A stretch of DNA of 64,000 nt. Source: a virus. The DNA lies in IMG/VR virus record IMGVR_UViG_3300023237_000006, positions 1 to 64,000 of that record, one strand, 5' to 3'. The position numbers and the translations under genes were made by a program. This document shows, piece by piece, positions 6,664 through 61,894 of the stretch; position 1 is the first letter of the stretch; each line of letters begins with the position of its first letter. Below the pieces are notes generated by a model. The model worked only from the letters and a program-made list of their open reading frames with translations, was not told the origin of the DNA and made no database searches.

Positions 6664-6677
6664 TATTTATATTTATA
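6664..6677 (-). promoter_or_regulatory. Double late promoter box of the enzyme operon
   Basis: The minus strand reads TATAAATATAAATA, two overlapping exact TATAAATA boxes (6670-6677 and 6664-6671). They end 10 and 4 nt before the ATG at 6659, so the transcript would have a leader of about 5 nt or essentially none. The four genes downstream have no promoter of their own and gaps of 1 nt or less. Confidence 0.75.
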
Positions 6678-7239
6678 TAAATGATAGGGCTTTAACTTTA
6701 AAATCGCAAAAAAAATGTTCATTCAACCAGTCGAGACCGTAACGATCACAAAACTTTTTTGCGGTCTGGTATGGGAATTTAGCGGATGATAATTTATTAA
6801 TTTTTATTCTAAGCAGACTAAGTAGATAGTCTCCATTACCATCGCCTTTTGCTATAATACTAGTAAAACTGTCATAAGATAGTGCACTTGATATAATTCT
6901 AATAGGAAAATGACGTTCAATATCAACGATCATCTTATTAATAACTCTTAATAACTGCGTCGCAGTTAATCTTGTCTTAGATAATACTGTTTTATTATGC
7001 AATGACATTAAATCTAACGATATAAATAATATAGTTTTTGCGTTACTCTTACTAGATAGTATTAATGTACACGCACTCTTTATAAAAAAATGATATAGGG
7101 TATATATTTCTTTATTCTTAGGTCCTTTATGTAGCTGCAATTTTTCATTATAATCTAACCAATCAACTATGATGTCATTCAATAAAATATCTGTTAAATC
7201 CACTAGATTAATATTATAATGCTTTAATTCCATCCCCAT
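6673..7239 (-). CDS. Hypothetical protein with host-type promoter
   Basis: 188 residues from the ATG at 7239, not recognised. Alpha/beta composition with hydrophobic strands such as 'KTILFISLDLM' and a C-terminal 'DRYGLDWLNEHFFCDF'. Two further ATG/TTG codons are close; 7239 is chosen because a TTGATA-16-CATAAT promoter ends 6 nt before it, the same spacing as at other early genes. The 3' end overlaps the late box of the next operon, so early transcription of this gene could read into 6659. Function unknown. Confidence 0.6.
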   Translation of the reverse strand: MGMELKHYNINLVDLTDILLNDIIVDWLDYNEKLQLHKGPKNKEIYTLYHFFIKSACTLILSSKSNAKTILFISLDLMSLHNKTVLSKTRLTATQLLRVINKMIVDIERHFPIRIISSALSYDSFTSIIAKGDGNGDYLLSLLRIKINKLSSAKFPYQTAKKFCDRYGLDWLNEHFFCDFKVKALSFI

Positions 7240-7245
7240 GTACAA

Positions 7246-7273
7246 ATTATGAGTATATTTTCTATAATATCAA
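7246..7273 (-). promoter_or_regulatory. Sigma70-like promoter, TTGATA-16-CATAAT
   Basis: On the minus strand, -35 TTGATA (7268-7273) and -10 CATAAT (7246-7251) are separated by 16 nt, and the ATG at 7239 starts 6 nt after the -10. Predicted transcription begins at the start codon. Confidence 0.6.
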
Positions 7274-7284
7274 CTTTTTTTTAA

Positions 7285-7734
7285 TTAAAGACTAACAGCA
7301 GTAAGCGTCGGTGTATCAGCTTTTATTCTACCAAGTCTAATATTAATTATCCCGTTATAGAAATCCTCAGATAAGAGAACGTTATTATCAAACTGCGTCT
7401 TAGCCTCGTAATATGCTAATTCAGACTTACTATTGCAAAATAATATAATTTTAAAGTCAAAACTCTCTTTCCCTTGAGATTCTATATCCCCTAATAAACT
7501 CTCACTAGATCCACAATATAATCTCCAATCAGTATCTTTTTGAATCCGCCGCTTCCGCTTCTTACCCTTCAACGGGGGATATTTAATGATTGTCTTGCAT
7601 TGCTTCTTACCTATATATCGACGATTATTACTAATATTTGTAATACAATATACAAACCCAAAAAAATCAGCAGGTGTATCGATTTCAGATCTCCAATGAC
7701 CTAGACTAATAATATTATTTTCTTTATCCTTCAT
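7285..7734 (-). CDS. GIY-YIG domain endonuclease-like protein
   Basis: 149 residues. 'GFVYCITNISNNRRYIGKK' (about residues 26-44) is a GIY-YIG motif pair with the usual spacing, and a Glu further on ('YYEAKTQF') could be the metal-binding acid. The family covers homing endonucleases, UvrC-type repair nucleases and phage endonuclease II. A basic stretch 'KGKKRKRR' at residues ~57-64 could bind DNA. There is no adjacent interrupted gene, so it is not obviously a homing enzyme of its neighbour. Its start has no late box nearby. Confidence 0.7.
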   Translation of the reverse strand: MKDKENNIISLGHWRSEIDTPADFFGFVYCITNISNNRRYIGKKQCKTIIKYPPLKGKKRKRRIQKDTDWRLYCGSSESLLGDIESQGKESFDFKIILFCNSKSELAYYEAKTQFDNNVLLSEDFYNGIINIRLGRIKADTPTLTAVSL

Positions 7735-7824
7735 TAGATTAATTTTATTATCTTTTCTAAGATGTTCTTAGGGTCTTTTTAACATAGACATATGTTATTT
7801 AATAGATAAAAAATAAAATCAAGG

Positions 7825-8097
7825 CTAATCTCCAGTCTTATTGTATTTTTTTTTATTCTTCTTTGTTTTTTTAGACTTTTTCTTAGATTTAATAGTTTTC
7901 TTACGAGTTTGTATATCCGGTTTTATGTTATTACCAAACATGTTTCTACTATCCCCTGGTGCATACGAGTCTGTCGTTGTAATATTAGTATCTGAAAATA
8001 TTTTTGCAGTATCGCCGAATGCGCCACCATCCCCCGCTGTCATATCCTCCCTTAATATTTTATTAAAAAAGTCCGCATATAAATTTGCCTTTGCCAT
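7825..8097 (-). CDS. Small late protein with Lys-rich tail
   Basis: 90 residues. The N-terminal part has 'NKILREDMTAGDGGAFG' and the middle 'TDSYAPGDSRNMFG'; similar 'EDMTAG...YAPGD.R' small proteins recur in marine T4-like phages. The last ~25 residues are nearly all Lys with Thr/Ser, which suggests nucleic-acid binding. L-R-E/D at residues 15-18 could be a prohead-protease site. An exact TATAAATA lies 5 nt upstream. The opposite-strand frame 7841-8119 is a shadow. Likely a small virion or internal protein. Confidence 0.65.
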   Translation of the reverse strand: MAKANLYADFFNKILREDMTAGDGGAFGDTAKIFSDTNITTTDSYAPGDSRNMFGNNIKPDIQTRKKTIKSKKKSKKTKKNKKKYNKTGD

Positions 8098-8112
8098 ATT
8101 AGTATTTATAAT
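8085..8112 (+). promoter_or_regulatory. uvsY promoter, TTGCCT-16-TATAAT
   Basis: -35 TTGCCT (8085-8090) and -10 TATAAT (8107-8112) with a 16-nt spacer; the uvsY ATG at 8119 starts 6 nt later. It would start the main recombination/replication operon. Confidence 0.6.
8103..8110 (-). promoter_or_regulatory. Late promoter box, exact TATAAATA
   Basis: Minus-strand TATAAATA ending 5 nt before the ATG at 8097. It overlaps the -10 of the divergent uvsY promoter (8107-8112) by four bases, so the two transcription modes should exclude each other. Confidence 0.75.
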
Positions 8113-8118
8113 TATTTA

Positions 8119-8514
8119 ATGGATCTACTCGAGAAATATATAGAAGAATTGAAAGCCGAGTTGGTAATAGATGAAATGAACGTAGGCGAAGTGCAGAGAC
8201 GCCTGCCAGCACGCCGTCACCATTGGGCTGCAAGGTTGATTAGACATAAGAGGGAGTTAAATAAACTATTAAGGGAGATTGATGTTAGGGCTAATGTTAT
8301 AGCTGCTAAATTGAAGGATGAATCACCTACTAGATTATCCTGGAGTCAAACAAAGGGAGCTGCTATGCAGAGTGTAGAGATTATAAAATATAAGCAGCAG
8401 ATTGAGGATTTAGAGTTAATAATTGAGTTTTTAGAGAAGTCTGAAAAAAACTTATCATCTATCCAGTGGGATATAAAAAATATTATTGCTATTCGGCAGT
8501 TAGAATTACTATAA
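8119..8514 (+). CDS. uvsY: UvsY recombination mediator
   Basis: 131 residues against 137 in T4. UvsY loads the recombinase UvsX onto ssDNA covered by gp32. The sequence follows the marine T4-type UvsY pattern: 'IDEMNVGEVQRRLPARRHHWAARLIRHKRELNKL' in the N-terminal half (quoted in parts: 'RRLPARRHHW', 'RHKRELNKL') and 'IEDLELIIEFLEKSEKNLSS' near the C-terminus. Predicted all-helical. The stop overlaps the ATG of uvsW by one base, and uvsX, gp32, gp46 and gp47 all lie within the next 20 kb, completing the T4 recombination machinery. Confidence 0.85.
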   Translation: MDLLEKYIEELKAELVIDEMNVGEVQRRLPARRHHWAARLIRHKRELNKLLREIDVRANVIAAKLKDESPTRLSWSQTKGAAMQSVEIIKYKQQIEDLELIIEFLEKSEKNLSSIQWDIKNIIAIRQLELL

Positions 8515-9965
8515 TGTCTGTAGAGATTAATTATTTGGTTAATATAGGTCAGTGTATTGTTAAGACTAAAGATGCTGTGCTGATGGAGAGTCTTAGAAAT
8601 AAATTCAGCATTCCTAATGAGGGTACTCGATTTAGTAAGTACTCCCCAGCGAGATTGTATGCTATTACCCCAGGTGGTAAGTTTGAGCCAGGATTATTGT
8701 CAGAAGTAGTTGAAGCTATAAAAGAGATTGATATTAAGTGTAGTATTAAACTCAGCCCGTCAGCTATTCTTACAATATCACCAATTGAAGATCCGGAGAA
8801 TATAAAAATGTTGGATACTAAAGATATTAGCCTGAGATATTACCAGATCAGGATTATACAGAAGGCAATGAGCGCTGGTCGAGGTGTTTGTGTTTTAGGT
8901 ACTGGTGGTGGTAAAACATTAGCAATAGCTACATTAATAAATAATTATTATTTAAGATCTAAGAATAAGAAAAACTTTAGATGCCTCGTATTAGTTCCAG
9001 ATAGAGGGCTTGTTAGGCAGACCTCAGATGACTTCACTGAATATAATGTACCTTATACCCATTGCCCCTGGACTGCAGAGTTTGATCTAGATACTAGTTG
9101 TAATATAGTGGTAGCTAGTAATAAGATAGTACAGAGTAGATTTAAAGATGCAGAATGGCTAAAGTATGTGGATATTGTAGTAGTGGATGAAAGCCATAAG
9201 CTAAAGAATAAAAATAAAATTGGAAAATTAGTAAATAAAATACACACCCACTCAAAGTTTGGATTTACAGGGACTCTCCCGGAGAGCCCCATAGATAAAT
9301 GGTCAGTTATAGGTAAACTAGGGCCGGTATTATATGAAAAGGGTAGTGCTGATCTTAGAGAAGAGGGATACTTAACGGATGTAAGTGTAAGTATACTTAG
9401 ACTGACCCATAAAGGAGGGCCTAAAACCCAGTTTACAAAAGCGGAGTGGACTAGCTCAATAAAATATAAGACAGAGTTAGATTATATTTATAATAGTAAC
9501 TTTAGAAATAATATTATATCTAAAATATCAGATAATTTTAATAATAATATTTTAATATTGGTAAATCACCTCGCGCATGGCAATATATTATACGATATAC
9601 ATAAAGATCTTAAGGATAAGCAAGTGTTTTTTGTTAGTGGTAGTGTGGATATTGATACTCGTGAGAGTATTAAAAAAATAATGGAAAATAGTAATAATGT
9701 TGTATGTATAGCGATGTCATCTGTGTTTTCCACCGGTATTAATATTAAAAATATACATATGATTGTATTTGCAAGTGGGGGTAAGGCGTTTATACGAATT
9801 GTTCAATCTATAGGTAGAGGTCTACGCCTCCATAGTTCTAAAACGACTCTGTTAATTATAGATCTAGCGGATAAATTCGAGTATAGTACTAATCACTTTG
9901 AAAAGAGAACGTTAATTTATACTAGAGAAAAAATTCCATATACCATATCTACAATAAAAGAGTAG
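8514..9965 (+). CDS. uvsW: UvsW RNA-DNA / Holliday-junction helicase
   Basis: 483 residues from the ATG at 8514 (T4 about 500). Superfamily 2 helicase motifs in order: Walker A 'GTGGGKT' (residues ~129-135), motif II 'VVDESHK', motif III 'GFTGTLPE', and motif VI 'QSIGRGLRL'. UvsW unwinds R-loops and branched recombination intermediates and drives the switch from origin-dependent to recombination-dependent replication. An upstream in-frame ATG at 8466 lies inside uvsY; the start overlapping the uvsY stop is preferred. Confidence 0.9.
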   Translation: MSVEINYLVNIGQCIVKTKDAVLMESLRNKFSIPNEGTRFSKYSPARLYAITPGGKFEPGLLSEVVEAIKEIDIKCSIKLSPSAILTISPIEDPENIKMLDTKDISLRYYQIRIIQKAMSAGRGVCVLGTGGGKTLAIATLINNYYLRSKNKKNFRCLVLVPDRGLVRQTSDDFTEYNVPYTHCPWTAEFDLDTSCNIVVASNKIVQSRFKDAEWLKYVDIVVVDESHKLKNKNKIGKLVNKIHTHSKFGFTGTLPESPIDKWSVIGKLGPVLYEKGSADLREEGYLTDVSVSILRLTHKGGPKTQFTKAEWTSSIKYKTELDYIYNSNFRNNIISKISDNFNNNILILVNHLAHGNILYDIHKDLKDKQVFFVSGSVDIDTRESIKKIMENSNNVVCIAMSSVFSTGINIKNIHMIVFASGGKAFIRIVQSIGRGLRLHSSKTTLLIIDLADKFEYSTNHFEKRTLIYTREKIPYTISTIKE

Positions 9966-9971
9966 ATATAG

Positions 9972-9999
9972 TTGATTAGTAGTTTTGATTGCATATAAT
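9972..9999 (+). promoter_or_regulatory. Promoter upstream of gene 55, TTGATT-16-TATAAT
   Basis: -35 TTGATT (9972-9977), 16-nt spacer, -10 TATAAT (9994-9999), with a second TATAAT directly after (10000-10005). The ATG at 10016 lies 10-16 nt downstream, so this transcript would carry a short leader, unlike its counterparts at gp32 and gp41. Confidence 0.5.
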
Positions 10000-10015
10000 T
10001 ATAATAGAGTTTAAA

Positions 10016-10483
10016 ATGGCTGAAGAAATAATAATAAAGAAGAAAAAGAAAAAGAAAAATGAGCATTACTACGTAGACCCTAAAGAGTTTAAGGCAGCAA
10101 TAGCATTATATTATGAAAATGGTATATTTCCAGATTATTTAGGAGAGTGTATAATGAAAATTGCAAACGGTTTAGGTTTTAATGGTAAATTTAGAGATTA
10201 TACATATAAAGAGGATATGATTGGAGATGCTATTGTAAAAATGTATGCAGCTCTTAGAAATCAAAATTTTGATGTAACATCAAAATTCAACCCCTTCTCG
10301 TATTTTACTACTATTGCATTCAGAGCTTTTATAAATAGAATAAAAAAAGAGAAGAGGCTCCATAAGGCTGAAACAGACTTTAGAGAGGAAGTGTATGAGC
10401 AATATATGATTGAATCGAGTGATGGTAAGGTTTATACTAAAACTTCTACTGCATTAGAGGAGGATGATTTCTTTAATGAGTAA
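10016..10483 (+). CDS. 55: gp55 late-transcription sigma factor
   Basis: 155 residues from 'MAEEIIIKKKKKKK' (T4 gp55 185). gp55 is a minimal sigma that lets host RNA polymerase recognise the 8-bp TATAAATA late promoter, activated by clamp gp45. The core 'YTYKEDMIGDAIVKMYAAL' and 'NPFSYFTTIAFRAFINRIKKEKR' (quoted in part: 'NPFSYFTTIAFRAFINRI') corresponds to sigma region 2. The C-terminus 'EEDDFFNE' is a plausible clamp-binding tail. A poly-Lys stretch follows the start. The ATG at 10016 is chosen over 9989 because 9989 lies within the promoter. Its presence fits the many late boxes seen in the window. Confidence 0.9.
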   Translation: MAEEIIIKKKKKKKNEHYYVDPKEFKAAIALYYENGIFPDYLGECIMKIANGLGFNGKFRDYTYKEDMIGDAIVKMYAALRNQNFDVTSKFNPFSYFTTIAFRAFINRIKKEKRLHKAETDFREEVYEQYMIESSDGKVYTKTSTALEEDDFFNE

Positions 10484-10485
10484 TA

Positions 10486-14596: not shown

Positions 14597-14599
14597 TTT

Positions 14600-16141
14600 A
14601 TGATAGGATATAGAAATATTGCGTACATACCTAGAACGAAGGAGGTAAAAGTTTGGACCTGGGATTCTGATGGTAATAGAATATCATACACTAAGTCGTA
14701 CACCCCTTATGTGTATATTGAAGATAAAAATGGGACAGATACTTCAATATTTGGTACTAAGCTCAAGCGTCGAGATTTTCAAACGCAGTACGCTCGAACT
14801 AGGTTTGTTCGAGATACTGGCATAAAGAGACTTTTTGAAAATCTACCTACTCATCAGCAATTTCTGTTAGATAAATACTGGGAGTTTAATGAGGGTGAGG
14901 AGTTTACATCCAAACCGCTCAAAGTACAATTTATAGATATTGAGGCTGTTGCGAGGGATGAATTTCCGAATGCTGAGGAGGCCAAGTACCCAATCAACGT
15001 TATAACTATTTATGATAATTTATTAAAGCATACATTTGTGTGGGGAGTTGGCGCATTTGACTCCTCTAAGTATCCTCCCGAAGATTTGACTTATTATAAT
15101 TGCCGGAATGAATTAGAATTGTTAGATAAAATGCTAACATTTTTTGAGAGTGACTATCCAGATGTAATCTCGGGATGGAACTCTGCTGGATTTGACATGC
15201 CATATATTATTAATAGAATAAACAATATTATGGGGGAGGATGAAATAAAGAGATTATCGCCCATAGGTAATGTTTATAATAGATCAATCAGAGGTATGTA
15301 TGGTAGAAATGATTTGAGATGGTATATCGATGGTGTATCTTGCTTAGATTATCTTGATGTATATAAACGATTTCAATTAAAAAATAGAGACTCATATAAG
15401 TTAGATAATATTGCAAATATAGAATTAGATTTAAGAAAAATTGATTACGGTAATATGCATATTGCAGATTTATGCGTTCAGGATTGGCAGACCTTTGTAG
15501 AGTATAATATTCATGATGTATTTTTACTTCAGAGATTAGATGAGGAATTGAGATATATGGAACTATTACGAATGTTAGCATATGTAGGTCTAACTACATT
15601 AGAGGCAGCTATGGGGGCAGTAGCTGTCATTAATGGAGCTGCAGCAATTAGAGCTAGACATAGAGATCAAAAAATTGCCACATTTATAAGGCATGAAGAT
15701 ACAGGGAAAAATCCAGGAGCGTATGTGAGCGAGCCTCAGGGAGGTTTTCAGCAATATGTAGTATCCTTTGACGCTAATTCCCTATACCCTAATATAATGA
15801 TATCCTTAAATATGTCCCCCGAGACAAAGGTCGGTAAAATTATATCTAAGAACGATAAGACAATTACAGTCAGGTATGTAAACGGTGAGACATTCGAATT
15901 ACCTTTAGAACAATTCGGTAGATTAGTACATAAGGAAAAAATAGCTATATCTAAAGCTGGCATTTTATTCTCTCAAAAGAAAAAAGGCATAATGCCCGAG
16001 ATGGTAGATTTTTATTATAATAAGCGCGTTGAAATTAAAAAATCATTGCAGGCTATAAAAATAGAGGCAAATGAGGTAGACAAGGCTATCAAAAAATTAG
16101 AGAAACTTAATAAGAAAAATGCCTTAGGTGTCTTAAGTTGA
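14600..16141 (+). CDS. 43A: gp43 DNA polymerase, N-terminal half (exonuclease and motif A)
   Basis: 513 residues of a family B DNA polymerase. Proofreading motifs: 'FIDIEAVA' (Exo I, around residue 113), 'NSAGFDMPYI' (Exo II) and 'YNIHDVFLL' (Exo III). Polymerase motif A is 'FDANSLYPNIM' (around residue 390). The protein then ends in a charged helix ('VDKAIKKLEKLNKK') and a TGA, before motifs B and C. These are in the next frame-shifted gene, 16189-17325. The two halves sum to 891 residues, close to the ~898 of T4 gp43, so no domain seems lost. Presumably the halves assemble into one enzyme. Confidence 0.9.
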   Translation: MIGYRNIAYIPRTKEVKVWTWDSDGNRISYTKSYTPYVYIEDKNGTDTSIFGTKLKRRDFQTQYARTRFVRDTGIKRLFENLPTHQQFLLDKYWEFNEGEEFTSKPLKVQFIDIEAVARDEFPNAEEAKYPINVITIYDNLLKHTFVWGVGAFDSSKYPPEDLTYYNCRNELELLDKMLTFFESDYPDVISGWNSAGFDMPYIINRINNIMGEDEIKRLSPIGNVYNRSIRGMYGRNDLRWYIDGVSCLDYLDVYKRFQLKNRDSYKLDNIANIELDLRKIDYGNMHIADLCVQDWQTFVEYNIHDVFLLQRLDEELRYMELLRMLAYVGLTTLEAAMGAVAVINGAAAIRARHRDQKIATFIRHEDTGKNPGAYVSEPQGGFQQYVVSFDANSLYPNIMISLNMSPETKVGKIISKNDKTITVRYVNGETFELPLEQFGRLVHKEKIAISKAGILFSQKKKGIMPEMVDFYYNKRVEIKKSLQAIKIEANEVDKAIKKLEKLNKKNALGVLS

Positions 16142-16188
16142 TCTACCAAATTTACACATTACCATATTAAAGAGGGGTATATATTAAA

Positions 16189-17325
16189 ATGCATATTGAA
16201 GATAAGATAGTAGCGCTAAAGCAAAAGCGTCATGAGCTCCGGATGGAGGAAAATCGATTAGATACAAAACAACTTACTATAAAAGTGCTTATAAATAGCG
16301 CCTATGGATATTTTGGTAATAAACACTCACCTATCGGTGATGATGATATAGCAAGTAGCATAACGCTATCTGGTCAGGCAGTGATTAAGCAGTCTAATAA
16401 GTTTGCTGCTGAGTTTTTACAAAAAGAAGCAGGAGTATCTAATGTTTATATGTCTAAAAACAGCCCTATTTTATACAACGATACAGACTCCTGCTATATA
16501 TCATTAAAGTCATTAGTAGATTCAGGTAAAATCCCGAATTTTGTAGATAGTAATAATAAATTAACGGCGGAGGTTTATGATTACTGTGAAAAATTAACGG
16601 TATATTTAAATGAAAAGATAATAGAATGGGCTAAGTCAGCCTTTAACTCTGAAGACTGTCGATTATTATTTAAGAGAGAAGTTATTAGTGATGTAAGTCT
16701 TTTTTTAGAGAAAAAAAGATACGCTATGCATATCTTAGATGATGAAGGTATTACTATGGACAAGTTTAAATATACTGGGGTAGAAGTAGTTAGAACAACT
16801 ATGCCAGATGCAGTAAAGCCATATGTAAAGGATATAATTGAAACTATGCTGATAGGACGGAAGCAGAAGGATACAGATGAGGCTGTTAAAAAGGCATATG
16901 ATGTGTTTATATCATTACCTGTAGAGGATACTGCATTTGTTGTTGGTTTATCTTCATTCGATAAATATCTTAAAGATTGTCATAATTTTAATACATGTAA
17001 GGGGATGCCAATTCATGCAAAAGCTGGATATTTTTATAATTGTGTATTGAAAGATAATAATTTAGATAAAATATATGAGCCCGCTGCTCAAGGTGATAAG
17101 TTAAGATGGATGTATGTTCAAAAGGGTAATAAATACGGAGTATCAGCTATAGGGTTTAAAGATAAATTTCCAGTAGAGTTAGAGGGTATGTTTAAAATTG
17201 ACTATGAGAAGATGTTTAGTAAAATTATATTCAACGTAGTAGAGAGATTTTATAAGCGCGTTAATTGGGTAGCTAGAAAACCTAATGACCAAATAAAGAC
17301 CGATTTGTTTGATTTATTTGCTTGA
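16189..17325 (+). CDS. 43B: gp43 DNA polymerase, C-terminal half (motifs B and C, thumb)
   Basis: 378 residues starting with a charged helix, then motif B 'KVLINSAYGYFGN' (about residues 35-47) and motif C 'YNDTDSCYI' (about residue 100), followed by the thumb. The C-terminus 'KTDLFDLFA' resembles the clamp-binding peptide at the end of T4 gp43. It is in a different frame from the first half, separated by 47 nt with a stop in its own frame at 16168, so no single base change would rejoin them. A purine-rich 'AGAGGGG' about 12 nt upstream is one of the few possible ribosome-binding sequences in the window. Confidence 0.9.
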   Translation: MHIEDKIVALKQKRHELRMEENRLDTKQLTIKVLINSAYGYFGNKHSPIGDDDIASSITLSGQAVIKQSNKFAAEFLQKEAGVSNVYMSKNSPILYNDTDSCYISLKSLVDSGKIPNFVDSNNKLTAEVYDYCEKLTVYLNEKIIEWAKSAFNSEDCRLLFKREVISDVSLFLEKKRYAMHILDDEGITMDKFKYTGVEVVRTTMPDAVKPYVKDIIETMLIGRKQKDTDEAVKKAYDVFISLPVEDTAFVVGLSSFDKYLKDCHNFNTCKGMPIHAKAGYFYNCVLKDNNLDKIYEPAAQGDKLRWMYVQKGNKYGVSAIGFKDKFPVELEGMFKIDYEKMFSKIIFNVVERFYKRVNWVARKPNDQIKTDLFDLFA

Positions 17326-18931: not shown

Positions 18932-18939
18932 TATAAATA
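18932..18939 (+). promoter_or_regulatory. Late promoter box, exact TATAAATA
   Basis: TATAAATA ending 5 nt before the ATG at 18945. It would place lipoprotein, protease and queC under late control inside the replication region. Confidence 0.78.
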
Positions 18940-20038: not shown

Positions 20039-20803
20039 ATGAGTAAAATAAAAAAATTAGTACTACCTATGTCTGGAGGGATGGATAGTACAGTATTGTT
20101 ACACAAGGCCTTATTAGAGTTCGATGAAATATATTGTATTACTTTTGATTACGGGCAGCGACATAGTAAAGAAATTACCTGCGCCGAAACGCAAATAGGG
20201 TATGCTAGAAAGAAACATAAGAGGGTATATCACCAGGTTTTAGATATAAGGTTCCTTAAAGAGCTTGCGCCTACTAGTTCGCTTACAAATGATAGTATAG
20301 ATACTCCTAATATAAGAGATATTCAAGGCGAAGCGCAGCCTAAAACGTATGTACCAAATAGAAATATGTTATTTCTTAGTATAGCTGCCGCTAGGGCTGA
20401 AGCTGTAGGAGCTACCACAATATGGCATGGCGCAGCTCAGGCTGATTCGTTAGCTGGCTACTGGGACGGGTCTGTTGAGTTCTTAGATAGTATAAATAAT
20501 ATATTAAATCTAAACAGAGCTTCGCCAGTCGTTGTAGAAGCCCCATTAATTGAGATGTCTAAGGCAGATATTGTAAGAGAAGGTATAAATCATAAAGTCA
20601 AATTCAGCGAGACATGGACCTGCTATGATGGGTCAAATTTACCTGATTATACTACCGCTAGCAGCTCTTTAAGATTGCAAGGGTTTATAGATGCTGGATT
20701 CGCTGACCCTTTAATATATAAGGATCAGCGAAAGTTAACAGACAAATATAACGAATTAGGTGTAGGCTTAATAGACTACGAGACATATATTTTTAAGTTG
20801 TAG
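20039..20803 (+). CDS. queC: QueC-like 7-cyano-7-deazaguanine synthase, zinc site altered
   Basis: 254 residues. The ATP-pyrophosphatase P-loop S12-G-G-M-D-S17 and the family motifs 'FDYGQRHSKE', 'TYVPNRNMLFLS' and 'IWHGAAQAD' are present. QueC turns 7-carboxy-7-deazaguanine into preQ0 with ATP and ammonia, and phages use preQ0-derived bases to modify DNA. The C-terminal zinc site (C-x7-CxxCxxC) is reduced to Cys195 alone: the other three positions are D203, T206 and S209. The reading frame around it is otherwise well aligned ('SETWTCYDG ... LQGFIDAGFADPL'). Activity may therefore differ from canonical QueC. Third gene of the late lipoprotein/protease operon. Confidence 0.85.
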   Translation: MSKIKKLVLPMSGGMDSTVLLHKALLEFDEIYCITFDYGQRHSKEITCAETQIGYARKKHKRVYHQVLDIRFLKELAPTSSLTNDSIDTPNIRDIQGEAQPKTYVPNRNMLFLSIAAARAEAVGATTIWHGAAQADSLAGYWDGSVEFLDSINNILNLNRASPVVVEAPLIEMSKADIVREGINHKVKFSETWTCYDGSNLPDYTTASSSLRLQGFIDAGFADPLIYKDQRKLTDKYNELGVGLIDYETYIFKL

Positions 20804-21457: not shown

Positions 21458-21465
21458 TATTTAGT
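21458..21465 (-). promoter_or_regulatory. Late promoter box, ACTAAATA
   Basis: Minus-strand ACTAAATA ending exactly 5 nt before the ATG at 21452; it lies just before the stop of the upstream gene (21473). Confidence 0.6.
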
Positions 21466-23244: not shown

Positions 23245-23252
23245 TATTTATT
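23245..23252 (-). promoter_or_regulatory. Late promoter box, AATAAATA
   Basis: Minus-strand AATAAATA ending 5 nt before the ATG at 23239. Confidence 0.62.
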
Positions 23253-23303
23253 ACTCTGAGTGGATTTTTTAATACTATTGTATATAATTATGTTAATAAT
23301 AGT

Positions 23304-23311
23304 TATAAATA
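23304..23311 (+). promoter_or_regulatory. Late promoter box, exact TATAAATA
   Basis: TATAAATA ending 5 nt before the ATG at 23317, which supports that start and predicts late, leaderless expression of the amidotransferase. Confidence 0.78.
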
Positions 23312-23316
23312 AAGAT

Positions 23317-23985
23317 ATGTGCGCAATATACGGCTCTTTTAATAAATCAATGTTTGAAATATTGCACGAATGCAATTACTCTAGAGGGCCCTGGGCGGGT
23401 AGCTATCTAGGCGCAATATTAAACAATAAGCATATTTATAATATTGAAAAATGGCAGGGCGTTGGTAAGATTGATAAAATCCTCACGAACGTAGATTATG
23501 GAGTATATTTAGGTCACCTGCAAGCACCTACCGGAATTAATAGGACATGGGATGAGCAATCCACTCACCCCTTTACTGTTGGAGATTGGGTAGTGGCTCA
23601 TAACGGAGTAATAACTAACCATAAAAGTATAATAGAGGAATATAATAGCAGTAATACTGTAACAGTTGATTCTAAATTAATACCATTAATGGCTCAGAAG
23701 ATAGCTGCAAGAGACCATAGCATAACTGAAGTTAAATCGTTAGAACTTGCTCTATCTAAGTTAGAAGGTACATTTGCAATCTGGGCATTTAATAAAAAAT
23801 CAGGTGTAATTTATATTAGTCGACAAGGGTCAACATTATATACTGATAAATCTGGGAATTTTTCTTCAACAGACAGTAGAGGCAGCTGGGATGAACTCCC
23901 AGAAGGCAAGATATTTAAATTAAGTAACAAGGGACCAATATTAGTGGGGCAGTTTAAGCAAAATAGCCCCTACCTATTAATATAA
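23317..23985 (+). CDS. Stand-alone class II glutamine amidotransferase
   Basis: 222 residues from 'MCAIYGSF', with Cys2 as the Ntn nucleophile once Met1 is removed; this and the late box fix the start at 23317 rather than 23260. Family elements include 'GHLQAPTGI', 'AHNGVITNH' (oxyanion-hole Asn-Gly) and 'LEGTFAIWAF'. Such domains release ammonia from glutamine and normally are fused to a synthase (GlmS, AsnB, PurF), but no synthase domain follows. The natural partner nearby is the QueC-like ATP-pyrophosphatase at 20039, resembling the fused Gat-QueC used for archaeosine-type bases. The partnership is inference. Confidence 0.8.
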   Translation: MCAIYGSFNKSMFEILHECNYSRGPWAGSYLGAILNNKHIYNIEKWQGVGKIDKILTNVDYGVYLGHLQAPTGINRTWDEQSTHPFTVGDWVVAHNGVITNHKSIIEEYNSSNTVTVDSKLIPLMAQKIAARDHSITEVKSLELALSKLEGTFAIWAFNKKSGVIYISRQGSTLYTDKSGNFSSTDSRGSWDELPEGKIFKLSNKGPILVGQFKQNSPYLLI

Positions 23986-29474: not shown

Positions 29475-30206
29475 ATGAATTTAAAAATTAACGATAAAGA
29501 GACATTCATTAGAGATTTTTTAAAGCCTATAACACAATTTTCTGAAACTGCTGTATTTAATAATAAGAACGGAGAGATGCAATGTATTGTGTCTTCTGTC
29601 GATAACTCAACGATACTATACACAAGGCATTTAACCGGAGTTACAGATGATGAGGATATTACAATCAATGTACCTAGCGTAGATAAACTTGTTAATTCTC
29701 TTAAGCTGATTGAAGGTAATGAAATTAATTTAATTATTAATACCAATAATCTGCAGTATAAATCAAATTTATTTAAATTTAAATACCACTTATATGAGGA
29801 TGGTATTTTATCCATACCAAAGCTCAACATAGATAAGATTAACGCATTTAAATATGATGTAGAATTTGAGATTAGTGCGGAACTTATTAACCAGATAGTT
29901 AAAAGCTCTACGGTAGCAGGAGATGCAAATAAAGTTTATTTTTACTCGAAAGATCAAAATATATACGCCGAGTTAACAGACAGGACAATTGATAATAGTG
30001 ATATGTTTTCATTTTGCCTCATCGAAGGTCATACAGGTAATGAGATTACAACACCTATACCGTTAATGTTAGATGCAATCCGCTCATTCTCGACCCTTAG
30101 ACAACCAGCGACGGTTTGTATTAATAATGAGTATGGCATCGCAAAATTTGATATTAATGTTGGGTCTACGAGGCTTCAATATATAGTTACATCAGTTATA
30201 TCATGA
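29475..30206 (+). CDS. 45: gp45 sliding clamp
   Basis: 243 residues (T4 228). The PCNA/gp45-type two-domain fold is indicated by the spacing of strands such as 'QCIVSSVDNSTILYTRHL', 'KLVNSLKLIEGNEINLIIN' and a C-terminal 'FDINVGSTRLQYIVTS'. The trimeric clamp holds gp43 on DNA and, in T4, also activates gp55-dependent late transcription. The gene starts 3 nt after the preceding one. The loader subunit gp44 is at 62490-63431 on the other strand rather than next door; a gp62 gene was not seen. Confidence 0.85.
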   Translation: MNLKINDKETFIRDFLKPITQFSETAVFNNKNGEMQCIVSSVDNSTILYTRHLTGVTDDEDITINVPSVDKLVNSLKLIEGNEINLIINTNNLQYKSNLFKFKYHLYEDGILSIPKLNIDKINAFKYDVEFEISAELINQIVKSSTVAGDANKVYFYSKDQNIYAELTDRTIDNSDMFSFCLIEGHTGNEITTPIPLMLDAIRSFSTLRQPATVCINNEYGIAKFDINVGSTRLQYIVTSVIS

Positions 30207-31707: not shown

Positions 31708-31715
31708 CATAAATA
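31708..31715 (+). promoter_or_regulatory. Late promoter box, CATAAATA
   Basis: CATAAATA ending 5 nt before the ATG at 31721; marks the change from replication to late genes. Confidence 0.65.
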
Positions 31716-34752: not shown

Positions 34753-34760
34753 TATTTATT
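34753..34760 (-). promoter_or_regulatory. Late promoter box, AATAAATA
   Basis: Minus-strand AATAAATA ending 5 nt before the ATG at 34747. Confidence 0.62.
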
Positions 34761-34790: not shown

Positions 34791-34798
34791 ATTAAATA
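34791..34798 (+). promoter_or_regulatory. Late promoter box, ATTAAATA
   Basis: ATTAAATA ending 6 nt before the ATG at 34805; with the box at 34753-34760 it forms a divergent late pair. Confidence 0.58.
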
Positions 34799-38598: not shown

Positions 38599-39444
38599 TT
38601 ATTTATTACTAAATGTAATATATTCATTGACGGCAGTGTTATAAATATGATTTATAGTCAGCTCTGGTAATATATTAGCGAAGTTCATCTTTATTTCGCT
38701 AATATACGAATGAGTAAAATTTCCATATATATCAAATGCACCAATAAAGTAGTTCCACAATCGATCTTCAGCAATATTTGGGTATGGTATACCTCTAGGT
38801 CTGTCGAAACGATGTACCCATTGTAGCTGCGGTATACATAAACACTTACTACCTCTTTTCATAAATTTTTTATGAATATAGCCCTCCTCCCCCCCGAAGC
38901 CTTTCATTAGAGAATGAAACTCAGGCCATACCTCTGTTCTGCATGAAAATAACCCCATCCCCATCGATTTAATTTCAAACGGCTTACCCCTTTTATATTG
39001 TACTTCATCAAAATCCCACTGGCCGTGCATTAAGCTTCCCCAATTTTCATTAAAGTGTGTATATCTATGAGTGAGACTATTTGATACTAACGGCCCTTGA
39101 ATTAAATCCTCAGTTAGAGGATTCTCCATATAAAACTCGATGAGAGCTTCAATGCTCTCTTGTGGTAATAGAATATGACAATCTATACATAATGTAAATT
39201 TAGTTTCAGAGTGTTTAAATATTTCATTCTTTATACTGGTGCCTATACGCTCTGTATATTCAACATATTTGCCCATTACCTCTGTTTCTATAAACTTCTT
39301 AGTAGCCTTACCATCTGCACTAGTTGGGTTATTATCAATTACCACAAATTGTATATTCATATCAGGGCAATTTAATCTAATGGATTGAATCGTAAAAAAC
39401 ACCCCATCAAAATCGTCATAAACTGGCATCCCTATTGTTAACAT
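38599..39444 (-). CDS. GT2-type glycosyltransferase
   Basis: 281 residues. 'LTIGMPVYDDFDGVFFTIQSI' (quoted in part: 'IGMPVYDDF') starts the GT-A fold, 'FTLCIDCHILLP' holds the DxD-like metal motif, and 'GFGGEEGYIHKKFMKRG' resembles the ED-containing acceptor region. A cytoplasmic enzyme without membrane segment. It lies between fibre genes in the late block, right after another glycosyltransferase, so a virion protein is a likely acceptor (inference). Confidence 0.8.
   Translation of the reverse strand: MLTIGMPVYDDFDGVFFTIQSIRLNCPDMNIQFVVIDNNPTSADGKATKKFIETEVMGKYVEYTERIGTSIKNEIFKHSETKFTLCIDCHILLPQESIEALIEFYMENPLTEDLIQGPLVSNSLTHRYTHFNENWGSLMHGQWDFDEVQYKRGKPFEIKSMGMGLFSCRTEVWPEFHSLMKGFGGEEGYIHKKFMKRGSKCLCIPQLQWVHRFDRPRGIPYPNIAEDRLWNYFIGAFDIYGNFTHSYISEIKMNFANILPELTINHIYNTAVNEYITFSNK
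38600..38607 (-). promoter_or_regulatory. Late promoter box, AATAAATA
   Basis: Minus-strand AATAAATA ending 6 nt before the ATG at 38593; it lies at the very end of the glycosyltransferase gene. Confidence 0.58.
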
Positions 39445-40930: not shown

Positions 40931-42009
40931 TATGGAAATATTTCAGTATGATAGTCTGTCGGTGCCTGTGCAAAGGCACCAGGGGCACTATAATACGGAT
41001 ACGGCGTCTCTGTAGTTGTCGTCGTAGTCGTCGTAGTCGTAGTAGTCGTAGTAGTTGGGTCAGGAGTTGACGGTAGTAAGTTTACATACACCCCAGTAAT
41101 GATCGGAGGTCTTACAGCTATCGGTATTTCATTGCCGGCTGATAATGTTATAAATGTAACTGAGCATTTATCAGGATCACTAAGTAATATCTCCGGATCA
41201 TCGGGACAATCATACAGCGTTATTTTTTCTAATCGGACAATCGGAACCGCTGATGGGGCAACGACATTTGTAGATTGTTGATATTGATAAGCTGGAAAAG
41301 CTATTGGTATTAGACTTCTTTCTGCTGCTACGGGGTTGTTATGTACGCCCTCGACATGATAATTTCTAATGGAAAATTTATAAGGTGTAGCAGCTCCACT
41401 AACAGGAGCAGAATAACCTACACCCACTTTAAATGCTGTAGTATCATTAACAGATAATGAGACCTGATATGTTAGTAGTTCTACATATCGCCCACCTTCG
41501 GTCTTATAATGTATTTTTAAGGTATTACCAACATCAGTTAATCTGAATCTTAACCGATTATAATTAATTTCTGCCTCTTCAAATATAAATGAACTATCAA
41601 TCGCTGACAATTCAATACTCGTTAATAATTGAAACCCGGTAGCGCCGCCTCGTATAGTTAAAGATTTATTTTTTGCATTAAAATTACCATCTACACCATT
41701 ACCGCTTATGGCAAACATACCCGCAGTATCAAAATTAATTCCTAATTTAGCTCCTGAAACTCCGGGTATATCTGCCCCAATTGAATGAGATTCTAACGGG
41801 AGATACCCACCTGCTTTACCAGGGCCCCCTCCAACTAAGCTCTCTACGTCAGCATCATATAAGAAGGTTGTAAAGGACCCCTGCGATTTATCAGGAATAC
41901 CACTTAATGCATAGTCAAACGACCACACTATATCAAAATTAGCATTATACCCCTTATTATGGGATATATTATTTACAATGCTATTATTAGGGATAAAATA
42001 CGTCGCCAT
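40930..42009 (-). CDS. Lectin-like fibre protein with poly-Thr stalk
   Basis: 359 residues. The N-terminal ~225 residues resemble an L-type lectin/concanavalin-like sandwich ('FDIVWSFDYALSG', 'GSFTTFLYDADV', 'LGINFDTAGMFAISG'). A Cys-containing segment follows, then 15 consecutive Thr (codons 41011-41055) before a short Tyr/Pro-rich C-terminus. The gene has a late box at standard spacing. The poly-Thr run could be flexible, or O-glycosylated by the enzymes encoded immediately downstream. Confidence 0.75.
   Translation of the reverse strand: MATYFIPNNSIVNNISHNKGYNANFDIVWSFDYALSGIPDKSQGSFTTFLYDADVESLVGGGPGKAGGYLPLESHSIGADIPGVSGAKLGINFDTAGMFAISGNGVDGNFNAKNKSLTIRGGATGFQLLTSIELSAIDSSFIFEEAEINYNRLRFRLTDVGNTLKIHYKTEGGRYVELLTYQVSLSVNDTTAFKVGVGYSAPVSGAATPYKFSIRNYHVEGVHNNPVAAERSLIPIAFPAYQYQQSTNVVAPSAVPIVRLEKITLYDCPDDPEILLSDPDKCSVTFITLSAGNEIPIAVRPPIITGVYVNLLPSTPDPTTTTTTTTTTTTTTTETPYPYYSAPGAFAQAPTDYHTEIFP
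41011..41055 (-). repeat. Threonine-codon triplet repeat
   Basis: Fifteen consecutive Thr codons, mixed ACT, ACG and ACA, inside the lectin-like fibre gene. Changes in copy number would keep frame and alter stalk length. Confidence 0.85.
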
Positions 42010-42014: not shown

Positions 42015-42022
42015 TATTTACT
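42015..42022 (-). promoter_or_regulatory. Late promoter box, AGTAAATA
   Basis: Minus-strand AGTAAATA ending 5 nt before the ATG at 42009. Confidence 0.6.
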
Positions 42023-42292: not shown

Positions 42293-42300
42293 TATTTAAT
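42293..42300 (-). promoter_or_regulatory. Late promoter box, ATTAAATA
   Basis: Minus-strand ATTAAATA ending 5 nt before the ATG at 42287. Confidence 0.6.
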
Positions 42301-46202: not shown

Positions 46203-46210
46203 TATTTAAT
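46203..46210 (-). promoter_or_regulatory. Late promoter box, ATTAAATA
   Basis: Minus-strand ATTAAATA ending 5 nt before the ATG at 46197. Confidence 0.6.
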
Positions 46211-47183: not shown

Positions 47184-49178
47184 TTATTTAATAGGATACA
47201 GATTTTTTACTTTTGTATTAATTATATTTAATATATCTTCCTGCAGATCAAATATAATATTGAGACATCTATTAATATTTCCAACTGATAAATGTTCGTT
47301 CTCATGAATATATAGATTGTTTGTATCAATTGACTTAATACTATCAAAAGATGTATACTCGTACTGCTTATATAGCAAATCCCCATTAATGTCATATTCC
47401 CCTATAAATCTACCCTTTAATAAGCTTTTGAGTTGAAATAAATTGTATATTTGTTTGTATATCTCGCTATTAATGGAAAGTGGCCCTATGTAGCCATTTA
47501 TTTCTGGACCGATCTTATCCTTAGTATAAATATTAATATCAGTTGTCTTTAATATTGTATCGAATACGGTACTCTCTGATACGCTAATAAACCTTATAGG
47601 GGCTGTCGTATTCATTCTTCTCCCTTGAATATTTACTATCTTCGGAGTACCTACATTTAGCGCAGCAAAAATTCTATCGAATTTACCACTCTCACTAATT
47701 GTAAAGTCATTAATTCGAGCAATTATATTATCTCCTCCGAATACAGATAATGCTTTCATTTCGTCCCAATTAACAGTAACCTGACTATAAGATAAATCGT
47801 CAATTAAATTCCATATATTTCTAAGAGATATTCCAGTGTTTTCTATTTGCCATTTACCTATAGGCTCAGAAAAGTTAGATATGAAATATTTAAAAATATT
47901 AGATGTCGTTTGGATATAAAAGACGTTCGAGTTTTCTGTACTAAATTCTATACTCGTTTCATATTTATTAATATTATCTTCAAGCTGAATTTCAAATTTT
48001 TCATACTGTATTGAGCCAGATTTATTAAACGTATTTATATAATATATAGAACTACCAACACCTCTGAATGTTGGGGAGGCCAACCCCTGAGGGGTGAGTA
48101 GAGGTACTCTAGGTGCAGAAGATAATACAAATAATATATCATTAAATTTATTATATTTGCAGGCTAAAATCTTTTCATTTTTACCCGTTATTTTAATATC
48201 AGCTATCCACGAGAAAAAGCTATCAAAAACCCTAACTATATTTGCCCCTGAATCATGTACGTATATAGTATCATCTGCAGACTCTATACGTTCTATATTA
48301 CTAAATAAATTCTTTTGATTTGATCGATCTATAGCCCCACCAACACTCTCTTCTAGTAGTAGCTTTTTATCTGTTGAACCATCACTAAAGAAATTAGATA
48401 TATCGTATTTAAATATAGTATTATTAGAGGAATCGGCAATAAACATCTTCTTACCTTCAATACATACATCTACTATATTTTTAAATTCTAGCGTCTTATT
48501 GCTATCAATTTTAGACCCACTAAATGTAACATTAATAGTATTATATGCACTATCTGAGGATAATGTTATTAATTTAGTGCCAGTACATGCAAAAATTATA
48601 TTATTACCATCATTAGTCTGTATATTATCAAACCTCCGGATTAAATCTAAATCATTTAGGCCGACTTCATTGCTAGACACTGTATCAGCAATATATTCCC
48701 CCGCGTGCCATTTCAAATCAAACCCTCCATCAGCTGTTGCTGTTAATATCTCAGTTGCCGTCGACACATCAATATCTGCCGAAACACCTGCCCAAAACGT
48801 CTCACCGGATGGTATATTATTGGAGGCTATAAATAGCTTACTATATAAAAATATTGTATTTTCATATACCCTATTAAGTACACTATTAAATGCAGTATAT
48901 GATATCGACTCATTAGCAGGCACTAATATATTTTCACGAGTATACGGGAATAGCAGACTATCCGATATTTTACGATCTTTAAAATATTTAGATTGGTAGT
49001 AATCACATTCAATCTTATTATTACTAGTTAATAATTTTGATTTATCGGTTCTATACTTACCAGTAGTAAACACACCATTATTGATATTAAAAAATCCTTC
49101 ATATGCACTACCATCTAATAATAGCTCACCGCTATCAGCATATGCATATCGCTTTTTAAAGAGTTCAGATATTTTCAT
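47184..49178 (-). CDS. Large structural protein with propeller-like middle
   Basis: 664 residues. The middle has strand repeats such as 'NNIIFACTGTKLITLSSDSAYN', 'VCIEGKKMFIADSSNNTIFKYD' and 'IESADDTIYVHDSGANIVRVFD', the pattern of NHL-like beta-propeller blades. N- and C-terminal parts are mixed. No catalytic motif. It lies in the run of very large proteins after the baseplate wedge genes and has only a 5-nt gap to the next gene. Baseplate-periphery or fibre role is inferred. Confidence 0.65.
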   Translation of the reverse strand: MKISELFKKRYAYADSGELLLDGSAYEGFFNINNGVFTTGKYRTDKSKLLTSNNKIECDYYQSKYFKDRKISDSLLFPYTRENILVPANESISYTAFNSVLNRVYENTIFLYSKLFIASNNIPSGETFWAGVSADIDVSTATEILTATADGGFDLKWHAGEYIADTVSSNEVGLNDLDLIRRFDNIQTNDGNNIIFACTGTKLITLSSDSAYNTINVTFSGSKIDSNKTLEFKNIVDVCIEGKKMFIADSSNNTIFKYDISNFFSDGSTDKKLLLEESVGGAIDRSNQKNLFSNIERIESADDTIYVHDSGANIVRVFDSFFSWIADIKITGKNEKILACKYNKFNDILFVLSSAPRVPLLTPQGLASPTFRGVGSSIYYINTFNKSGSIQYEKFEIQLEDNINKYETSIEFSTENSNVFYIQTTSNIFKYFISNFSEPIGKWQIENTGISLRNIWNLIDDLSYSQVTVNWDEMKALSVFGGDNIIARINDFTISESGKFDRIFAALNVGTPKIVNIQGRRMNTTAPIRFISVSESTVFDTILKTTDINIYTKDKIGPEINGYIGPLSINSEIYKQIYNLFQLKSLLKGRFIGEYDINGDLLYKQYEYTSFDSIKSIDTNNLYIHENEHLSVGNINRCLNIIFDLQEDILNIINTKVKNLYPIK
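47185..47192 (-). promoter_or_regulatory. Late promoter box, ATTAAATA
   Basis: Minus-strand ATTAAATA ending 6 nt before the ATG at 47178; overlaps the end of the upstream gene. Confidence 0.58.
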
Positions 49179-56173: not shown

Positions 56174-56178
56174 ATTAA

Positions 56179-56186
56179 TATTTATA
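56179..56186 (-). promoter_or_regulatory. Late promoter box, exact TATAAATA
   Basis: Minus-strand TATAAATA ending 5 nt before the ATG at 56173. Confidence 0.78.
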
Positions 56187-56197
56187 GCATATTACGC

Positions 56198-59521: not shown

Positions 59522-59524
59522 GTA

Positions 59525-60820
59525 TTAATTAATTATTATCTTCGCAGCAAGTTCCGAACCTTTGTAGAAAAACGGCACTTTAAAGAACGGTAATTGTATA
59601 TTTTGGGTTGTAATATTTATATCATCTTCCGGATATAGTGTATTCCACGTTAGTAGACTAATGCCGGGTTTTTTAATAGTATTGCCTTCATAAGTTGTAG
59701 ATGTGTATATTTCATCTACCCCTGATATATCTATTATTCGTCTAGATAAATCAGCTAAATCTATTACCATTCCGAGAGTTATATTACTATTATCAAAATA
59801 GTCTAATATAATTTTATTGATGGAGGTCTTTATATCATCTAGGGATATATTTATGCCCCTATCTGCATTAACTACTAAAGTCGTATTGTCTCTAATTTCC
59901 GAAATTGACCTTGGGTCGTTTGATTGTATTTCTACCCCTAAGTCTACCGCAGTATAAACTGGATCGCAAATTACAATCTCATTCGTAACCATCTTTACAC
60001 GATCTATATAATCATTAATGGCCTTTTTTAATGATTGTGGCGTTGCTACCGGCGCAATTTCATTTATAATGGATCCTGCTGATGGTAATGCAAAAACATA
60101 TATATTATTAAAGTCGCATGCATCTGCGAACTTTAACTGGTTAATTGATACATTAGTATCTTCGTTAGGTCGTGATAGCCCAATGTCGTAGTAATATTTT
60201 ATTACATTATCTATATAGCTATTATTATTGACAACTTTTATAGACTGAAACAGGTTACTAAATTGCTTTTTTAATAATGATTCATAATCATCTATAGTCA
60301 CCGCTCTATTTTGCGCAGAAAATACTCTAGGCGCGTTTTGTTTAATATCTTCTAATAATTCATAGTCTGAGTATGGGGTAGATTTTGCGGTATTATTTAA
60401 TTCTATCTCTTCAGATGCAATCCTGCCAGCTATTGTATTAGATCCAACAAAATTGATATTAGTGGAATCGCTATACAATGCTGAATTTAATTCTTGAAAT
60501 CTTTGGGAGTTGTATTGTTTGATAGAAGATGCCTTAAGCAGCCCTGATATATCAATATAAGCTTCACTACCATCACTCAATAGATAGAATACATATATTA
60601 TATCTCCCTCATTAAGCTTTTTACCGGTAATATTATTACCAAACTTTAACTCTACACGACCATTTTCGTTTACTCTCTTTTCAAATACATCCGATGTACC
60701 GCCAGCATAATATAGACTATCTATCTCTTCCCATTGCGACCAGGTATTATCCCCTATATTTTTAACATAAATGTTAATATTATTATAATCTATAAATTGG
60801 GTATTTTTATTGTCTACATC
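59525..60820 (-). pseudogene. 6: Baseplate wedge gp6, C-terminal part (frameshifted)
   Basis: Open frame of 431 codons from 60820, with the first in-frame ATG only at 60580. It carries the gp6/BplA-like core 'SAQNRAVTIDDYESLLKKQF' and the C-terminal part 'LADLSRRIIDISGVDEIYTS'. Residues coded upstream of the ATG ('YVKNIGDNTWSQWEEID', 'ELKFGNNITGKKLNEGD') are clearly protein-like and continue the 5' fragment at 60814-61374. One extra G after AAG (60820-60822) would restore a single gp6 of about 615 residues (T4 660). It may be a sequencing or assembly error, a true mutation, or a recoding site. Confidence 0.8.
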
Positions 60821-61374
60821 TTAAGTATTAATGTTAATACTTCATAACTCTCACCCATCGCTGTATATTCCGGATATTCAGTAAATACGCCCTGAAATAG
60901 CAACGTCTTGTCTGAAAAAGTAGTAAGGGGTTCATTACCAGTAATTGTTTTTTCAAATGATACATCTTTAGAAAATGAATATGTAAATCCGTTATAATTA
61001 ATATAAGAGTATCTCTTTATACCATATGCCCCGACCGGTAGTTCTGCCGTCCCCTTCGCTTGAAAGCTTACAACTGAAGTCTTAGGCCCTTCAGGCTTAT
61101 AATCTATAAGTTTTACCAACTTATTCATATTCTCATATAGCTGAGTTTGATCAAACATTGTTTCAGATGATGTTTGGTTCAAATAGAACAGTAGTATATG
61201 ATATGTAAAGGCAAAAATATCAGTCAATGCAGCAAGGTTACTTCCCTCAAAATTCTGATCGGTAAATACAGTATTTTCAGTTAGCCTATCTGTTATGTAG
61301 TCCTTCAGCGTTACAGCGTCAAAAGATGCATAGGCTCCTTTAGGTAAATTAAATTCAACAAATTCAGTACTCAT
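60814..61374 (-). pseudogene. 6: Baseplate wedge gp6, N-terminal part (frameshifted)
   Basis: 186 residues ending at a TAG. 'FEGSNLAALTDIFAFTYHILLFYLN' (quoted in part: 'FEGSNLAALTDIFAFTYH') and the Met-Phe-Asp-rich segment after it are the usual N-terminal signature of gp6-type wedge proteins. The protein stops abruptly ('LTLILKM') where the neighbouring frame goes on with 'DVDNKNTQFIDYNN'. gp6 forms the wedge ring around the hub and is essential in T4, so full-length product is expected in a viable phage. Starts 6 nt after gp25. Confidence 0.8.
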
Positions 61375-61380
61375 ATCTTC

Positions 61381-61866
61381 TTAGTTATTTAATACAGCGA
61401 ACCCTTCGTAGTTGAGTAACCCCGATAATAATAATTCACTTCCAGCTAAAAAGGGTACGCGAATGAATAAATTTACTATATATGCTTCGTCTTCTATACG
61501 CGAAATCACCTCTGGGGGTTTTATAAATTCAATACGAGGTTCTTGTTCTATTAGACCTGACCTTATTCTCTCTACAATAGTTACCCTAACACTTTCGGAT
61601 ATTGGCTCAAATAGTACATCTCTTAAATCAATGCCGAATAGCGGATTTAATATCTTCTCCCCTGGAGAGGTAGTCATTATATTAATTATTGAATTTCTGA
61701 TAGCCCCTAAATCATAGTCAATTTGAATATCTTTTCTCTCATTATCCGCATATACCTCATCTCTGGATGTAAAGGTGGCAGCAATATCTAGATGTAAGTC
61801 GGAGTACGAAAAATCTCTTGTATATTCACGAGCTTTCGGCAACGACGTTATTTTAACGTTTCCCAT
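61381..61866 (-). CDS. 25: gp25 baseplate wedge protein
   Basis: 161 residues from the ATG at 61866 (T4 gp25 132). The core 'GAIRNSIINIMTTSPGEKIL' and 'PLFGIDLRDVLFEP' is typical of the gp25/lysozyme-like wedge family conserved in contractile injection machines. The start is chosen because a late box ends 5 nt before it and because it removes an antisense overlap with the gene at 61901. First gene of the 25-kb late structural block. Confidence 0.88.
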   Translation of the reverse strand: MGNVKITSLPKAREYTRDFSYSDLHLDIAATFTSRDEVYADNERKDIQIDYDLGAIRNSIINIMTTSPGEKILNPLFGIDLRDVLFEPISESVRVTIVERIRSGLIEQEPRIEFIKPPEVISRIEDEAYIVNLFIRVPFLAGSELLLSGLLNYEGFAVLNN

Positions 61867-61871
61867 GAAAA

Positions 61872-61879
61872 TATTTAAG
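61872..61879 (-). promoter_or_regulatory. Late promoter box for gp25, CTTAAATA
   Basis: Minus-strand CTTAAATA ending 5 nt before the ATG at 61866. Confidence 0.6.
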
Positions 61880-61886
61880 GAGATAG

Positions 61887-61894
61887 AATAAATA
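61887..61894 (+). promoter_or_regulatory. Divergent late promoter box, AATAAATA
   Basis: Plus-strand AATAAATA ending 3 nt before the ATG at 61898 and 6 nt before the next in-frame ATG at 61901. The standard spacing favours 61901. It lies 7 nt from the opposing gp25 box. Confidence 0.58.

Follow-up and report, generated by a model that had tools for sequence, protein, structure and literature searches.

About one-third of the genes of IMGVR_UViG_3300023237_000006, an uncultured virus with a record of 111,925 bases, carry a T4-type late box (TAAATA, or in full the octamer TATAAATA) five or six nucleotides before the ATG, and it is very likely that these boxes, read through gp55 and gp45, would produce late mRNAs that are leaderless. 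We analysed bases 1–64000 of the record (the whole stretch of 64,000 nucleotides, referred to here as the window) by comparing each TAAATA, on both strands, with each ATG opening an ORF of at least 60 amino acids, the ORF starts being those called by an in-house script. Twelve ORF ATGs were found at a gap of 5 nt and five at a gap of 6 nt, with 0–2 at nearly every other gap up to 39, and in a check set beforehand, the count for gaps 5 and 6 together averaged 0.12 and reached at most 1 over 60 shuffles that preserved the dinucleotides of the window, compared to the 17 observed, which shows that the spacing peak is not compositional. A further 9 starts at gap 5 and 4 at gap 6 were found in the remainder of the record (64001–111925), which had not been seen in the sequence-only reading that proposed the pattern, and for the record as a whole the 21 starts at gap 5 and 9 at gap 6 stand against a background of 1.06 per gap (Poisson P = 3e-24). 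No comparable peak was produced by hexamers of the same composition, and the overlapping registers ATAAAT and AAATAT gave weaker peaks. Octamers resembling TATAAATA are found above chance at gene starts in this record, with the exact octamer at gap 5 upstream of the ATGs at 8097, 18945, 23317 and 56173. All sixteen ATGs named in the sequence-only reading have the position, strand and TAAATA gap ascribed to them, and their boxes are listed here together with the gaps found in related records (G001, G003 and G006) and in the pelagiphage HTVC008M:

8103..8110, minus strand, late box TATAAATA, gap 5 to ATG 8097; gap 5 in the G001 orthologue
18932..18939, plus strand, late box TATAAATA, gap 5 to ATG 18945
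21458..21465, minus strand, late box, gap 5 to ATG 21452; gap 5 in the G001 orthologue
23245..23252, minus strand, late box, gap 5 to ATG 23239; gap 5 in the G001 orthologue
23304..23311, plus strand, late box TATAAATA, gap 5 to ATG 23317; gap 5 in the G001 orthologue
31708..31715, plus strand, late box, gap 5 to ATG 31721; gap 5 in the G001 orthologue
34753..34760, minus strand, late box, gap 5 to ATG 34747; gap 5 in G006, and gap 5 in G001 with the start two codons away
34791..34798, plus strand, late box, gap 6 to ATG 34805 (divergent from 34747); gap 5 in G001, and gap 5 in G006 with the start one codon away
38600..38607, minus strand, late box, gap 6 to ATG 38593; gap 6 in G006 and gap 7 in G001
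42015..42022, minus strand, late box, gap 5 to ATG 42009; gap 5 in G006
42293..42300, minus strand, late box, gap 5 to ATG 42287
46203..46210, minus strand, late box, gap 5 to ATG 46197
47185..47192, minus strand, late box, gap 6 to ATG 47178; gap 6 in G006 and gap 7 in G001
56179..56186, minus strand, late box TATAAATA, gap 5 to ATG 56173; gap 5 in G001 and G006
61872..61879, minus strand, late box, gap 5 to ATG 61866 of the gp25-like baseplate wedge gene; gap 5 in G001, G006 and HTVC008M, gap 6 in G003
61887..61894, plus strand, late box, gap 6 to ATG 61901, the second ATG of an ATGATG, and gap 3 to the first, overlapping ATG at 61898; gap 7 in G001

The design had been described as genome-wide, which is too broad, since a box at gap 5 or 6 precedes 33 of the 101 called genes and the others have no box or a box at a different gap; at about one-third of the genes the spacing is nonetheless real.

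Profile matches to PHROG families pointed to T4-like genes for replication and late transcription, namely UvsY, UvsW, gp55, gp47, gp46, UvsX, gp41, gp32, gp45, gp44 and a DNA polymerase spread over two ORFs, as well as the tail sheath, a gp25-like wedge protein, the tape measure and TerL (the TerL frame is open for 569 codons). The homologues of the T4 late-transcription proteins are located as follows:

10016..10483, plus strand, gp55 homologue, late sigma factor (PHROG 234, E=2e-29; PDB 7d7c chain F, T4 gp55, E=2e-10)
29475..30206, plus strand, gp45 homologue, sliding clamp (PHROG 223, E=4e-8)
62490..63431, minus strand, gp44 homologue, clamp loader (PHROG 168, E=4e-78), with a gap-6 box of its own

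No match to gp33, which is small and divergent, was found among the window proteins scanned, which were part of the ORFs. The boxes are most likely to be T4-type late promoters because the gp55, gp45 and gp44 homologues are encoded by the same phage and because the spacing is locked to the ATG. The likeness to the T4 late promoters served by gp55, gp33 and gp45 extends to the octamer TATAAATA, these homologues, the distance between the box and the predicted +1, and the use of both strands. We note that the DNA polymerase gp43 at 14600–17325 of the window is divided between two adjacent ORFs (matching PHROG 262 positions 19–506 and 505–845), and that QueC-like and glutamine-amidotransferase-like genes at 20039–20803 and 23290–23985 possibly have a role in 7-deazaguanine DNA modification.

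The position of the predicted start follows from what is known of T4, where the first T of the late octamer is at −13 (PMC2988020) and adenines −12, −9 and −8 are contacted in pockets of gp55 in the gp55 structure (PMC7892883). If TATAAATA is placed at −13 to −6, which fits both sources, +1 coincides at gap 5 with the first base of the ATG, as the sequence-only reading had proposed from T4 geometry; for a gap of 6 the proposal needs to be loosened, with +1 predicted on the A or one nucleotide before it and a leader of 0 or 1 nt. The base in front of the gap-5 ATGs was a pyrimidine in 58/61 cases compared to 238/459 at other starts when the genomes were pooled (Fisher P=2.5e-12), and this was seen in each genome, with 19/20 in this record, 20/20 in G001, 7/7 in G006 and 8/9 in the first 50 kb of HTVC008M, against about half at the other starts of all genomes. 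In leadered late promoters the predicted +1, six bases on from the box, was a purine in 10/12 T4 and 10/10 Melnitz promoters, so the identical start position is marked there too. A pyrimidine–purine step at the predicted start is consistent with initiation about one helical turn beyond the box. Leaderless bacterial genes are by accepted practice recognised in silico from a TA-like signal about 10–12 bp before the start (PMC3160421), and a −10-like element approximately 10–12 bp upstream of the start codon is present at the boxed genes of this record. As in TA-led leaderless bacterial genes, this element takes the place of a Shine–Dalgarno sequence (PMC3160421); however, the bacterial element is similar to the −10 box of the host's sigma-70, whereas here it would be the site of the phage late sigma factor, and this would tie leaderlessness to the late phase of infection.

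We propose that the TAAATA/TATAAATA boxes would be read by the RNA polymerase of the host with gp55 of the phage as its sigma factor and the gp45 clamp as activator. With a box placed before about one-third of the genes, transcription would begin at the A of the start codon where the gap is 5, and on this A or one base upstream where the gap is 6. The primary late mRNAs would then be leaderless, with the 5'-terminal AUG acting as the initiation signal and a Shine–Dalgarno sequence impossible. Read-through may in addition supply mRNA for the translation of several boxed genes that stand in tandem, and some genes probably have leadered copies from this source. This proposal draws its support at the sequence level from the locked spacing, the conservation of the boxes, the pyrimidine–purine initiator, the gp55, gp45 and gp44 genes and the contrast with T4, and from these we infer where the actual 5' ends would lie, that gp55 would be used at each box, and that the mRNAs would be translated in leaderless form.

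T4 late transcription is a textbook case in which the promoter and the ribosome-binding site are separate parts. When we examined T4 it showed a box peak at gaps of 24–29 nt (12 sites, P=2e-5) with a Shine–Dalgarno sequence in the leader between box and ATG, and Melnitz was found to be likewise, which bears out the earlier statement that T4 uses leaders with ribosome-binding sites. In contrast, the leader predicted for the phage studied here is 0–1 nt, and promoter and translation start appear to have been merged, with an 8-bp box plus 5 bp setting both the start of the RNA and the start of translation. The late promoters of the cyanophages S-PM2 and Syn9, NATAAATA, are a related box used with gp55 (PMC2984593), but S-PM2, Syn9, P-HM1 and P-SSM4 differ from our phage in that their gap-5 counts are near the control level.

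Genes for replication, recombination and nucleotides, of which 16 were recognised, are all without a conserved box at gap 5 or 6, and the sole box at these gaps among these early-type genes, that of gp44, is absent from the gp44 genes of the relatives. Among the boxed genes are gp25 and the tape measure, though most have no recognised function, and the description of the boxed genes as late rests partly on their position and on the box itself. There are exceptions among the recognised structural genes: the sheath has its box at gap 7, and no box precedes the tail-fibre or the gp6-like start.

A search with gp44 identified 21 related loci, most with 45–69% identity, and the whole records of the larger ones were then counted. 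G001 has 21 starts at gap 5 and 7 at gap 6, and G006 has 7 and 3, respectively; the peak is at gap 6 in G003 (5 starts) and G002 (8 starts). The box is kept at orthologous starts of proteins sharing 35–68% identity, the clearest case being gp25 (ATG 61866). The most informative case is the cultured pelagiphage HTVC008M, which has 12 gap-5 ATGs, all of which are GenBank-annotated starts. These ATGs are at 6280, 7562, 11972, 18943, 19456, 31132, 49760, 75559, 75830 and 142360, with two more on the minus strand at 16007 and 18916, and the genes concerned include the tape measure, gp2, gp4, gp48, gp25 and a baseplate initiator; at the HTVC008M starts inspected, the late-box gaps fall into two classes, one of 5–8 and one of 18 or more (8 starts). 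Pelagimyophage gp25 promoters have a gap of 5 or 6 in 21/21 distinct sequences (at least 73% identity). In a more distant set there are starts with a gap of 8, yet in most of the sequences inspected the fifth and sixth bases beyond the box are still a pyrimidine and a purine, which would mean a 3-nt leader.

Whole-genome counts of ATAAATA-N5-ATG were compared with control counts. These were high in the two cultured pelagimyophages, HTVC008M (9 vs 1) and Mosig (8 vs 0), as well as in this record (16 vs 3) and G001 (14 vs 0), slightly raised in Melnitz (4 vs 0) and the 490-kb Atu_ph07 (5 vs 2), and near control in T4, the four cyanophages, BUCT-ZZ01, KVP40, phiM12, CP220, Cr30 and RM378. The near-control counts do not support RM378 and the cyanophages as sharing the design. 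It should be noted that HTVC008M encodes a ribosomal protein, bS21 (41228–41431), which might, as a matter of speculation, aid leaderless translation; a search for bS21 in this record and the related ones (G000–G007) gave no match, and we do not regard it as a general helper.

Shine–Dalgarno sequences were found at 1/24 boxed starts and 11/95 other starts in this record. The absence of such sequences from the boxed genes, claimed in the sequence-only reading, is therefore true but is not specific to late genes, and as nearly all genes of this phage lack one, their absence is not diagnostic here; translation in this phage may be independent of Shine–Dalgarno sequences in any case. Their absence is informative in pelagimyophages only, e.g. 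HTVC008M. No Shine–Dalgarno sequence lies inside the predicted mRNA at any of 15 pelagimyophage loci. The non-boxed genes of HTVC008M have one in 17/37 cases. At its late-box starts, one is present in 2/15 with a gap of 8 or less, in each case ahead of the box and so outside the mRNA, compared to 8/8 where the gap is 16 or more (P=9e-5).

We considered three other explanations for the fixed gap. The first accepts the boxes as late promoters but holds that translation is mostly from upstream leadered or polycistronic mRNAs, with the short gap the result of tight promoter packing. Read-through is likely, given that many boxed genes are in tandem with spacers of 5–30 nt, but packing predicts a spread of gaps and not a sharp peak at 5–6, the boxed genes at 77096, 77981, 82246 and 84340 have the identical gap despite long free upstream regions, and in HTVC008M the short gaps of 5–8 stand apart from the class of 18 or more with its Shine–Dalgarno sequences, all of which make this explanation improbable. 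A second, for which we see even less of a chance, is that the box is not a promoter but a translation signal on a longer mRNA, similar to the A/T-rich Kozak-like element of Bacteroidota with adenines at −3 and −6. With a gap of 5 the box does end in an A at −6, and TATAAATA has its second base at −12, both of which are favoured in Flavobacterium (PMC6847099), and the non-boxed genes of this phage likewise have no Shine–Dalgarno sequence and a remote relative is found in a Flavobacteriales MAG. However, 68 non-boxed genes show no enrichment for A at −6 (26/68) and their A/T richness is weak, what recurs is one fixed hexamer that agrees with the late box of T4, this hexamer is missing from the recognised replication genes save for the non-conserved copy at gp44, and a Kozak-like rule does not include a pyrimidine at −1. 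The same gap is also found in HTVC008M, whose other genes use Shine–Dalgarno sequences, and we rejected this explanation on the profile of the non-boxed genes and on HTVC008M. Finally, chance or the base composition of an AT-rich genome, in which TAAATA is common, occurring 324 times in the record, can be dismissed with near certainty, being refuted by the shuffles, by the repetition of the peak in the remainder of the record, the relatives and two isolates, and by the conservation of the box at orthologous starts.

Leaderless late mRNAs made from T4-type late boxes thus remain our preferred reading. Leaderless late programmes are known, e.g. in the Thermus phage phiYS40, which is not known to be a T4-type gp55 system, and a version built on T4-type late promoters was not found described. 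Most middle and late mRNAs of phiYS40 are leaderless (PMC3594737), and the likeness between the two phages lies in leaderless middle or late mRNAs which were measured in phiYS40 and are predicted here. In the open-access literature our search gave no account of late mRNAs of T4-like phages being leaderless, nor did the sources searched yield RNA data for these phages; within this scope the design appears to be new for a T4-like phage, as the sequence-only reading had suggested. It is not peculiar to this phage, as it recurs in relatives and two cultured pelagimyophages. We consider it reasonably likely that this is a widespread and undescribed design of marine T4-like phages, including the pelagimyophages of SAR11, in which gp55 promoters are fused to start codons and translation is switched late from leadered to leaderless mRNAs, possibly with the aid of bS21. 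Late-promoter prediction was unsuccessful in a pelagimyophage study (PMC7029224), which the merged design may explain. The design would also help gene finders to place start sites in many marine phages by rule, and leaderless translation could be tested in a cultured pair, HTVC008M on Pelagibacter ubique HTCC1062.

The host of this phage was also considered. No close cultured relative was found, with gp44 matches of 38% identity or less in that search, and the collection searched held no phage near this one. A first genome scan for the host was empty, and the best match of a second was a remote relative (gp44 38% identical) on a Flavobacteriales MAG contig (L136), which is a weak hint of a Bacteroidota host for part of the clade. 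A scan for Bacteroidota −7/−33 promoters gave counts only slightly above shuffles, and we name no host from these scans.

Several arrangements of boxes and starts in the record are worth describing. An overlapping double late box, TATAAATATAAATA, is found at 6664–6677 of the window on the minus strand before the ATG at 6659, with gaps of 4 and 10. The divergent starts at 61866 and 61901 are 34 bp apart with one late box each (gaps 5 and 6), and mutual exclusion of polymerases at these promoters would be expected; HTVC008M has a comparable divergent pair, 18916 on the minus strand and 18943 on the plus strand, 26 bp apart and both at gap 5. Two GTG starts also lie at gap 5 from a box, at 71588 (minus strand) and 64035 (plus strand) of the record, and leaderless GTG starts would be unusual; the box of the start at 64035 is conserved in both G001 and G006.
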